From NCBI RefSeq assembly GCF_013306565.1, contig NZ_PZPO01000002.1, positions 12,501 through 76,500 on the forward strand: a DNA stretch of 64,000 nucleotides, written 5' to 3'. Position 1 is the stretch's first letter, and each line of letters begins with the position of its first letter. The notes under the pieces were generated by a model. That model was not told the DNA's origin and did not search any database. It was given only the letters and a program-made list of their open reading frames with translations. This DNA comes from Hyphomicrobium sulfonivorans (GTDB taxonomy: Bacteria > Pseudomonadota > Alphaproteobacteria > Rhizobiales > Hyphomicrobiaceae). Both the position numbers and the translations under genes were made by a program. Shown in pieces: positions 38,362 to 44,436 of the stretch.

Positions 38362-38762
38362 TGCAGCGACCTTTCAAGGTTCGCAGCAGCTAAACACTGC
38401 TCGATCAGACGGAAGTTATCGGAGCCGCGTCAATCGCGATTTTAGCGAGGCGGCGTATTCAGCGTCAGATTTTAAACGAGCTGATCCGGCGGCTTGCTTG
38501 TGAGCAGCGGCCGTTTGAAACCCAGCGATTTCGCGGATTCAAACCGCATTCTCGTTAAACCTCGCTCGTTCCCATCGGGACGGCGATCTGAGCCGAGCGT
38601 TTGCGCTCAACCCAGAGCAAGATAGAAAGGACAGCAGCACTGACCTTTCGATCGACATTGACAGATTTCTAATCGCTGCACAAGCACCAATGAACATGCG
38701 CACATTGTCCTGCCTGCAATTTAGGCAGTACGCCGAAAAACTGATCAATACGCGCATAAAAG
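38362..38762. other. Intergenic stretch upstream of gltB
   Basis: About 400 bp between the gltB start and the hsp20 terminator, presumably holding the gltB promoter. I see no gene, repeat or recognisable RNA here. Confidence 0.5.
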
Positions 38763-38790
38763 AGCGGCCGCGGTGGGAGCCGCGGCCGCT
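38757..38790 (-). terminator. Terminator of the hsp20 gene
   Basis: A perfect 11-bp stem (AGCGGCCGCGG with CCGCGGCCGCT) and a 6-nt loop. On the minus strand it is followed by CTTTTAT. It lies about 60 bp past the hsp20 stop. Confidence 0.85.
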
Positions 38791-38851
38791 AAGTTTAGGG
38801 GAGGGAAGTGTACGCAAAGGCTAGTGTCGTATCGCTTGTCGTGTGTCGGGC

Positions 38852-41395: not shown

Positions 41396-42202
41396 TCAGC
41401 CCGCAGCGAGAACCGCCATGGCCTTGGCGTGTAATTCCGGATCGCCTGCCGCGAGAATGCGCCCGCCTTCGGTGGCCGGGCGGCCGTCCCAGGTGGTGAT
41501 GACGCCGCCAGCGCCTTCGATGATCGGTATCAGCGCAACGATGTCGTACGGCTTCAGTCCGGCTTCGACGACAAGATCAACATGCCCCGCCGCCAGCATG
41601 CAGTAGCCGTAGCAGTCGCCGCTGTAGCGGGTCATGCGAACGCGGGGGCGCAGGGCGGCAAAGCCTGTCGTTTCCTCGCCCGCTGCAAAGAGCTCCGGAT
41701 GGGTGGAGGTGAGAATGGCCTGATCGAGGTCGGTGCAGGTGCGGGTGTGGAGCTGTCGCTCGCCGTCCGGTGAACGGCAGAAGCTGCCACCTTCGTCAGA
41801 CCAGAACCGTTCGCGGGTGAATGGCTGGTCCATCATGCCAAGCACGGGCGTGTTGCCATCCATCAGTCCGATCAGGGTGCCCCAGAGCGGCCAGCCCATA
41901 ATAAAGGCCCGGGTGCCGTCGATCGGATCGACCACCCAACGCAGGCGCGCATCTGGATTGCGCGTGCCGTGCTCCTCGCCGACGAAGCCATGCTCCGGCC
42001 AGTGGGCGGCAACGAGATCGCTGATCACCTTTTCGGCGCCGCGGTCGGCTGCAGTCACAGGGTCGAATGTGCCGTCGCCGCCCTTGTCAGCAACGCCGAT
42101 GGGGGTGCGGAAGTATGGGCGGATGGCCGCACCGGATGCGTCCGCCAGACTATGCGCAAAATCGACATAACGGCGAAGAGGGGTTTGAGATGAGCTTGTC
42201 AC
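41396..42202 (-). CDS. hisN: Histidinol-phosphatase, inositol-monophosphatase type
   Basis: A 268-aa Mg-dependent phosphatase. In alphaproteobacteria and actinobacteria this IMPase-fold HisN removes phosphate from histidinol phosphate, the eighth step of histidine synthesis. Metal ligands appear as FVGEEHG and VVDPIDGTRAFI, and later YSGDCYGYCMLAAGHVDLVVE with GLKPYDIVALIPIIEGAGG. These match HisN better than SuhB or CysQ. The GTG start at 42202 has AGGAG about 12 bases upstream. Confidence 0.88.
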   Translation of the reverse strand: MTSSSQTPLRRYVDFAHSLADASGAAIRPYFRTPIGVADKGGDGTFDPVTAADRGAEKVISDLVAAHWPEHGFVGEEHGTRNPDARLRWVVDPIDGTRAFIMGWPLWGTLIGLMDGNTPVLGMMDQPFTRERFWSDEGGSFCRSPDGERQLHTRTCTDLDQAILTSTHPELFAAGEETTGFAALRPRVRMTRYSGDCYGYCMLAAGHVDLVVEAGLKPYDIVALIPIIEGAGGVITTWDGRPATEGGRILAAGDPELHAKAMAVLAAG

Positions 42203-42439
42203 AGTATTAGCTGCGCTCCTGGGCAGTCATATTGCAGTAAAATTGGCATCCGCATGACGCTTAGACATACTGTGTAGTGCAGTTGTTTCGCGTTGTGGCC
42301 TGAATCCGCCAACTGTTGCGGCGTGGATACAGAGTAACTGTAATGCGCGACCAATTCGCCGTCGTTGGTTGATGGACAGGGCGAACCGGCTCATATCTCG
42401 ATAGCGCGGTGGCGTTGGTCGATCCAGGGCTACCGTTTT

Positions 42440-42497
42440 GCCCACTTGGGCGTTTCCTCCCTAGACTTGGGCCGTTCGCATGCGAACGGCCTTTTTT
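42440..42497 (+). ncRNA. Small-RNA-like module 1 with anti-SD motif and terminator
   Basis: A short hairpin (GCCC-ACTT-GGGC), an unpaired GTTTCCTCCCTAGACTT, then a perfect terminator palindrome (GGCCGTTCGCA with TGCGAACGGCC) and six Ts. CCTCCC at 42456-42461 is complementary to Shine-Dalgarno sequences. 34 bases from 42445 are identical to module 2 at 42869. No ORF leads into it, so it looks like the 3' end of a trans-acting sRNA. The 5' end and promoter are unknown. Confidence 0.6.
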
Positions 42498-42862
42498 CCT
42501 GCCCAAATGCTTTCATCGTTTTGTCACCCGTGCTGAGCCCCATTGTGACGCTCGCCGGTGGCATCATCTTCGCCGCTATCGCCATTCAAAAAGCAGTCGC
42601 ATTTGGCGGACGTAGCGAGCGTCTTGCAATTACAGCTTGTGTATTGGGCAGTGGAATTGAGTTTTCACTCGCTTTTCTGCGCATATCCCTTTGTTTGGGC
42701 TCGCCCTATTTACGGTTTTGGCACTTGCTGCTGTCATTATAGGCATACTGCTAATGCGATCTCTGATTTTGGTGGATCAGCCATGCAGAAAACGCAGTTG
42801 TCTTTGTTGCGGCGCACTAGTAGTTTTGCGATGCGACATGATGAGCTCTGCTCTCTGTCGTA

Positions 42863-42923
42863 GCCCTCCTTGGGCGTTTCCTCCCTAGACTTGGGCCGTT
42901 CGTGATCCGAACGGCCCTTTTTT
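42863..42923 (+). ncRNA. Small-RNA-like module 2 with anti-SD motif and terminator
   Basis: The same architecture as module 1: hairpin GCCC-TCCTT-GGGC, unpaired stretch with CCTCCC at 42880-42885, then terminator GGGCCGTTCG with CGAACGGCCC and six Ts. The loops differ from module 1 while both stems are kept, as expected for a conserved RNA. The 360 bp between the modules shows no gene; the 5' part of the RNA would lie there. Confidence 0.6.
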
Positions 42924-43224
42924 CTTGCCAATTTCACGATGCGGCACAATCGCCCAGCAAAAGTGACTGATTTGATGACGGTCATGTTGGGGTTGGTGAC
43001 ATGTCGCAAGTGACGGAATCGATCAATTGTCCGACCGCATCGATCATCAAAATATAAAATGGTGCGATGCAGTATGGTGCTTTTTGCATGGCTTCAATAA
43101 GCATTGCAGCAATCATGCATAAGGCGACGGTGGCCTGATACCGCCAGCGGTCCCATCGGCAAACCCTGCAATACCAGCACAAAAGCCATCGCGTTGAGAT
43201 CAGAGGGCGGAAAAGCTGCGAAAC

Positions 43225-44124
43225 CTATTCAGCCGCAGCGCGATATTCCAGCATCGCCGGCAATTCGCTTAATAGAGGCACCGCCAAAGTCTGCAAATCT
43301 CTTTGCAGAGTCGCGAAGCTCTTCTTGAGGCGCAAGGTGCGCTCATCAATGTACAGGCCGCGATTGATCTCGATTTGCACCGCGTGCACGTTACGGGCCG
43401 GGCGCCCATAATGCTCGGTGATGTAACCGCCGGCATAGGGGCGGTTCATGTGCACTTTGTAGCCGAGATTGGTGAGCGTATCGCGCAGGAAGCGCGAGAT
43501 TTTATTGTCGGCCGAAGCACCAAAGCGATCGCCCAGCACAATGTCCGGCCGCGGGCCGCCAAATGATGCCATCGAAGATGACGGCATCGAATGGCAGTCA
43601 ATCAGGATCGCATAGCCAAACCGCTGCCGCGTTGTTTCAACCAGCTCGCAAAGGGCGGCATGGAAGGGAATGTAAAGCTGCTGCACCCGTGCCAGTGCGT
43701 CTGCGAGTGAAATCTTGTGGCGGTAAATTTCTTCGCCGTCAGCCACAATGCGCGCGATGGTGCCGAGGCCGCCGGCGACACGGACCGATTGCGTATTGGC
43801 GTAGTCGGGCAGCGGCTCGTCAAAGATCTCGGGGTCGAACTCATAGGGTTCGCGGTTGACGTCCAGGAATGCACGCGGAAATCGCGCGGAGATAAGCGGC
43901 ACGCCGAGCTCCGCAACCGGAGCGATCAGTTCATCGACGAAGCAGTCTTCCGATTTACGCAGACATAATGGGGTCAAGCGCGACTGCGCGATGAAGCTCT
44001 GCGGGTAGATGCGGCCTGAATGGGGCGAGCAGAATACAAACGGCGCGACCTGACGCTCCGGCTCGGTGACCGTGTAAGGCGGCAGTAATTCCGCCGGGAT
44101 TATTGGGGCATCGCGGGCAGGCAT
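43225..44124 (-). CDS. N-formylglutamate amidohydrolase, paralogue 1
   Basis: A zinc-dependent amidohydrolase of the FGase family (299 aa from ATG 44124; the frame is open to 44178). Family motifs are FVFCSPHSGRIYP near the N-terminus with the zinc His, RFPRAFLDVNREPYE, ILIDCHSMPS, and HAVQIEINRGLYID. Members hydrolyse N-formyl-L-glutamate to formate and glutamate in histidine degradation or act on related formylated compounds. No other hut genes are nearby. A second, divergent paralogue lies at 48826-49707. Confidence 0.88.
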   Translation of the reverse strand: MPARDAPIIPAELLPPYTVTEPERQVAPFVFCSPHSGRIYPQSFIAQSRLTPLCLRKSEDCFVDELIAPVAELGVPLISARFPRAFLDVNREPYEFDPEIFDEPLPDYANTQSVRVAGGLGTIARIVADGEEIYRHKISLADALARVQQLYIPFHAALCELVETTRQRFGYAILIDCHSMPSSSMASFGGPRPDIVLGDRFGASADNKISRFLRDTLTNLGYKVHMNRPYAGGYITEHYGRPARNVHAVQIEINRGLYIDERTLRLKKSFATLQRDLQTLAVPLLSELPAMLEYRAAAE

Positions 44125-44436
44125 GCTTTTTGCGAGGTCTCTCTCCGAAGTGATCGGAAGCCTACAAGGGCCTAACACTGCCCGCCGGACCGCTTTCGTA
44201 TGCTCAAAAAACGCGCCGTCGGGACAATGCGTCCCAACTCTTATCGTCGGCCTTGCTCACTGTGCCAAGGTCGTCTCAATATGTCCACTGGGGGACACTA
44301 AGCTGGCGGTCTCGCTGGAGGGGGAAGGGTCTGTTTTGATGGGCCGAGTTCACCTCCCGTTTACCGTAGTAGAACCAAAGTCGCGCCGATGCAGACATTC
44401 GGCCGACGCGTCGAACCGATAGTTCCAGAGTAATCA

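Follow-up and report, generated by a model that had tools for sequence, protein, structure and literature searches.

The locus and its two RNA modules

The window, that is, the whole stretch of Hyphomicrobium sulfonivorans DNA that was analyzed (64,000 nucleotides), carries two similar modules between an inositol monophosphatase-family gene and a gene for N-formylglutamate amidohydrolase (FGase); a response regulator gene also belongs to the flanking set. The FGase protein is 98% identical to that of Hyphomicrobium sp. D-2. Positions 1-1440 of the window hold two rRNA genes, 23S (its end only) and 5S. The features of the two modules and their neighbors are as follows.

41396..42202, - strand: inositol monophosphatase-family (SuhB/HisN-like) gene, on the side away from FGase (PF00459, 3.5e-50)
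42404..42498, + strand: copy 1, predicted alpha-r8 (MmgR/SuhB) sRNA (RF00519, terminator; 5' end placed from promoter-like spacing)
42433-42506, + strand: RF00519 match of copy 1, 62.6 bits
42453..42462, + strand: copy 1 seed 10-mer UUUCCUCCCU, identical to the alpha-r8 10-mer of PMC12559287
42469..42498, + strand: copy 1 intrinsic terminator (fold and terminator scan)
42834..42924, + strand: copy 2, predicted alpha-r8 (MmgR/SuhB) sRNA (RF00519; 5' end predicted)
42856-42932, + strand: RF00519 match of copy 2, 74.4 bits
42877..42886, + strand: copy 2 seed 10-mer UUUCCUCCCU, identical to the same alpha-r8 10-mer of PMC12559287
42893..42923, + strand: copy 2 intrinsic terminator (fold and terminator scan; stem covaries across 53 relatives)
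43225..44178, - strand: FGase gene, a syntenic marker of alpha-r8 genes (PF05013, 1.1e-74)

An identical core, TTTCCTCCCT, begins at 42453 and again at 42877, a spacing of 424 bp, and the longest exact stretch common to both copies is CTTGGGCGTTTCCTCCCTAGACTTGGGCCGTTCG, 34 nt in length. The fold of each copy has a 4-bp GCCC/GGGC hairpin, followed by an unpaired CCUCCC and then by a 10-bp terminator stem, and six Ts close the strong terminator of each. The terminator scan placed the stems at 42469-42492 (copy 1) and 42893-42917 (copy 2), with T-runs after both. A Pfam search of the open reading frames overlapping the sRNA region gave no match, whereas the flanking genes do match. A sequence-only reading of this DNA had described the 34 identical bases, the 424-bp spacing, the GCCC/GGGC hairpin, the CCTCCC and the six-T terminators, and all of these were confirmed; its remark that no open reading frame feeds the terminators also holds, in that no Pfam-matching coding gene leads into either module.

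Family membership and conservation of the pair

Both modules are members of a known family, RF00519, which carries the Rfam name suhB, is now described as MmgR and is equivalent to alpha-r8. With its covariance model the two copies score as listed above against a gathering cut-off of 41, with full-length model matches and E-values of 1.6e-13 and 1.6e-10 across the 64-kb window, far beyond chance. The distinguishing traits of alpha-r8 are found in both copies. First, the 10-mer is present and, in the fold, single-stranded and 3' of a weak hairpin. Second, a Rho-independent terminator lies at the 3' end. Third, the genes are linked to the FGase gene, as is usual for alpha-r8 (PMC12559287), and relatives are arranged likewise. 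A new sRNA class is ruled out since both copies exceed the cut-off, and the novelty claimed by the sequence-only reading, which had itself named a known Rfam family as the refutation of that claim, is lost. Its description of a tandem pair of paralogous sRNA genes that expose an anti-Shine-Dalgarno (anti-SD) motif is supported.

Three weaker RF00519-like sites were also seen. One, at 38750-38822 (- strand, 35.2 bits), contains CCCUCCCC, ACUU and a strong GC-rich stem; it sits between an HSP20 gene and a glutamate synthase gene and is present in only one other member of the genus. The others, L004 (G000:C7:628328-628406, 32.8 bits) and L005 (G000:C6:1090215-1090297, 29.2 bits), lie in the same genome, have strong terminators and are possibly other anti-SD-type sRNAs. 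None of the three was counted as a further sibling, because they fall below the cut-off and do not possess the exact 10-mer.

Within the same GTDB family, 93 of 99 genomes have an RF00519 match above the cut-off; for the order the figure is 97 of 120. The tandem pair was present at the FGase locus in all the genus members read and at most of the other Hyphomicrobiaceae loci read; by an exact-core test, FGase loci from other Hyphomicrobiales mostly have one core or none. In the H. zavarzinii group/genus there are three tandem alpha-r8 cores (loci L006, L010, L013, L014, L016, L017, L028 and L032). Tandem alpha-r8 genes are already known in kind, because several copies, some of them adjacent, have been reported in many genera (PMC12559287). 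Within the genus each copy retains its own loop, terminator and upstream signatures, so that the divergence of the copies predates the genus radiation, with no homogenization. By this comparison, copy 1 is no younger than the genus.

Upstream regions, the 5' stem and the loop seed

The copies differ in the elements upstream of their cores.

42369..42397, + strand: putative copy 1 promoter, -35 TTGATG, 17-bp spacer, -10 CATATC, identified by eye in the alignment
42798-42803 and 42821-42826, + strand: putative copy 2 promoter, -35 TTGTCT and -10 TAGTTT respectively, with a 17-bp spacer, read by eye
42808..42816, + strand: PhaR/AniA operator core, box 1 (TGCGGCGCA), from the motif YGCRNYGCR (PMC12542648), between the putative copy 2 -35 and -10
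42827..42835, + strand: PhaR/AniA operator core, box 2 (TGCGATGCG), from motif and conservation, over the predicted copy 2 start
42833..42861, + strand: copy 2 5' stem-loop, outside the RF00519 model, from a covariation permutation test

The putative copy 1 promoter is largely conserved in the genus; a consensus promoter scan did not recover the hexamers read by eye for either copy. The operator core YGCRNYGCR was taken from PMC12542648, in which the S. meliloti MmgR promoter is bound by PhaR (AniA). This motif appears approximately 70 and 51 bases upstream of the copy 2 core in the window genus, as it does in three further genera; the H. zavarzinii group has a single occurrence, at about -53 from the core of its middle copy. 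In all of these there is none in the corresponding stretch before copy 1. Among 152 distinct copies, many of them related and hence non-independent, the motif lies 45-75 bases upstream of the core in 94 of the 105 single or later copies versus 7 of the 47 5'-most tandem copies. It ranks first of 576 same-composition permuted motifs, whose median count is 1. A PhaR operator core in the promoter, expected of an mmgR orthologue, is thus found for copy 2 only. Copy 2, the neighbor of the FGase gene, is read as the mmgR orthologue, and with two boxes over its predicted promoter it should be repressed by PhaR. Copy 1, which has a different conserved upstream region with neither PhaR boxes nor the loop seed described below, should be PhaR-independent and expressed under other conditions, with narrower, overlapping targets. 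The sequence-only reading had offered additive or condition-specific control, and it is the condition-specific part that gains support: the copies have distinct conserved upstream regions, and PhaR boxes precede copy 2 but not copy 1. No description of such a promoter split between siblings in Hyphomicrobiaceae was found in the literature examined; a 2016 phylogenetic study of alpha-r8, outside that literature, may contain part of it.

When the S. meliloti distance from PhaR site to transcription start is applied to box 1, the copy 2 start is predicted at 42835. This distance, the promoter-like spacing and a covarying 5' stem together were used to place the copy 2 5' end. In the test for this stem, PhaR box 2 served as the anchor for the left arm and the GCCC hairpin for the right. 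Among 61 distinct sequences, 367 of 488 cells were paired, versus 308.6 (sd 6.5, maximum 328) when the right arms were re-dealt, in a permutation that treats the sequences as unrelated and so ignores kinship. The same test revealed no excess of pairing in other registers. A MAFFT-based consensus fold had missed the stem because of gaps, and it was anchoring both arms that revealed it. The terminator stem of copy 2 covaries as well (53 relatives). A third, 5' stem-loop therefore probably exists in these RNAs, and it is probably known in kind, because a review gives MmgR three stem-loops (PMC7143759). We infer transcription and the start sites of both copies from these elements: the RNAs probably begin some 30-40 nt further upstream than the sequence-only reading had placed them, near 42404 and 42833-42835. 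That reading had also taken structural conservation from the two copies themselves, for which their identical stems are insufficient; covariation became visible only after relatives were aligned.

The copies differ also in the loop of the first hairpin, which is ACUU in copy 1 and UCCUU in copy 2, where it creates a second anti-SD motif, CCUCCUU. This motif is present in 50 of 54 later tandem copies, in 38 of 51 single copies and in 10 of 47 5'-most copies.

The siblings might be redundant, with the duplication serving simply to increase the amount of a single RNA and with only incidental differences between the promoters. The entire seed region is identical in both copies, and in Caulobacter the siblings can bind the same sponge (PMC12559287), as redundancy would suggest. 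However, each copy has a separate conserved upstream region within the genus, the PhaR boxes strongly favor one copy, and copy 2-type genes retain the CCUCCUU loop seed that most 5'-most copies lack, so we consider redundancy unlikely. It is far less probable that the FGase-proximal copy alone is active and that copy 1 is a decaying duplicate. The RF00519 score of copy 1 is indeed the lower of the two, but in 7/7 aligned genus members its core, its terminator and its promoter-like elements are all conserved, and the 5'-most copy has been retained in most genera of Hyphomicrobiaceae. Almost no weight can be given to the idea that the modules, because strong terminators end both, are not independent sRNAs but just terminators or leader regions belonging to the converging genes or to a longer mRNA: there is no recognizable + strand coding gene upstream, the conserved seed, covarying 5' stem and conserved upstream region would be left unexplained, and the homologues are discrete Hfq-bound RNAs (PMC12559287, PMC7143759).

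A sibling pair with one proposed PhaR-controlled copy, and its relation to known systems

As a whole, these results make us confident that this locus is best explained as tandem alpha-r8 sibling sRNA genes, of which copy 2 would be a PhaR-controlled mmgR orthologue and copy 1 differently controlled. The predicted product of each copy measures about 90 nt; a variable 5' stem-loop and a weak hairpin come first, then UUUCCUCCCU as the single-stranded seed, and last an intrinsic terminator. Both sRNAs would be Hfq-associated and trans-acting, as is the family. With Hfq, the seed would pair with the ribosome-binding sites (RBSs) of mRNAs and block their translation, as has been shown in Caulobacter, where SisA pairs via the 10-mer with a site upstream of the start codon of its target, proven by compensatory mutation (PMC12559287). 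The sequence-only reading's mechanism, in which CCUCCC blocks ribosome binding, has therefore been demonstrated for a homologue with the same 10-mer. PhaR senses the storage polymer PHB and would repress copy 2; copy 1, with one seed, would act in different conditions, on fewer targets that overlap those of copy 2. We lean modestly toward the more specific proposal that the Hyphomicrobiaceae pair places one regulatory seed under two separate inputs: copy 2, which carries two anti-SD seeds, would respond to PHB through repression by PhaR, copy 1, which carries one, would be PhaR-independent, and this division of labor would have been kept across genera of the family.

The genome encodes Hfq, PhaR, PhaC and four phasin-family genes, the partners expected of an MmgR circuit, in which losing the RNA is expected to increase both PHB and phasin protein. 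In a pairing check of the four phasin-family genes, phaC and phaR against the open reading frames of the window, the start regions of two phasin-family genes ranked near the top versus 49 background frames. Both have a purine-rich RBS that recurs in the eight genus members, (U)AGGGAG(GA) in one gene and, for the most part, AGGAGGA in the other. The first of these sites is complementary to the seed and conserved in 8/8 genus members (L164-L171), and its gene is a candidate target. PHB-granule phasins may thus be plausible targets, a prediction that is suggestive only and weak because any purine-rich RBS or Shine-Dalgarno sequence favors pairing with an anti-SD seed.

Because the pair belongs to an established and broadly conserved family, it does not represent a new class of sRNA. 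What is added here is that the pair is conserved across Hyphomicrobiaceae and that its copies differ in upstream control elements. The predicted promoter split bears on why alpha-r8 siblings are retained: duplicated sRNAs may be kept because their promoters diverge, so that PhaR, the regulator of carbon storage, would control just one of the two.

Among known systems, SorY (RF02651) resembles these modules in having CCUCCC ahead of a terminator, but it is ruled out by a score of 21.4 bits versus a cut-off of 111. AbcR1 and AbcR2 (alpha-r15) are also tandem alphaproteobacterial sRNAs with anti-SD motifs (PMC7143759). However, they belong to another family with different synteny, and in a permissive Rfam scan of the region RF00519 and the sub-threshold SorY match were the sole hits, with no AbcR/alpha-r15 model among them.

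SisA-D of Caulobacter crescentus are of the same family, with the identical 10-mer and with SisA linked to FGase. The extra siblings lie elsewhere on the Caulobacter chromosome, whereas the Hyphomicrobium copies are in tandem; the promoters of the Sis siblings are unrelated (PMC12559287). SisA-D are countered by the sponge RNA CrfA, which sequesters them (PMC12559287). In Hyphomicrobium a single complement scan, which covers near-exact complements (≤3 mismatches), yielded both genes themselves and three 3-mismatch sites versus two for a reversed control, and so no convincing match outside both genes and no sponge candidate.

A further close counterpart is MmgR (SmelC689) of S. meliloti, which restrains PHB accumulation and is Hfq-dependent (PMC7143759, PMC8401924). 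It shares with the present locus the sequence and structure of the whole model, the FGase synteny of the family, the CCUCCC seed, the terminator and, for copy 2, the PhaR box in the promoter. MmgR is single-copy with one listed PhaR site, whereas Hyphomicrobium has two copies, of which copy 2 is preceded by two boxes and copy 1 by none.
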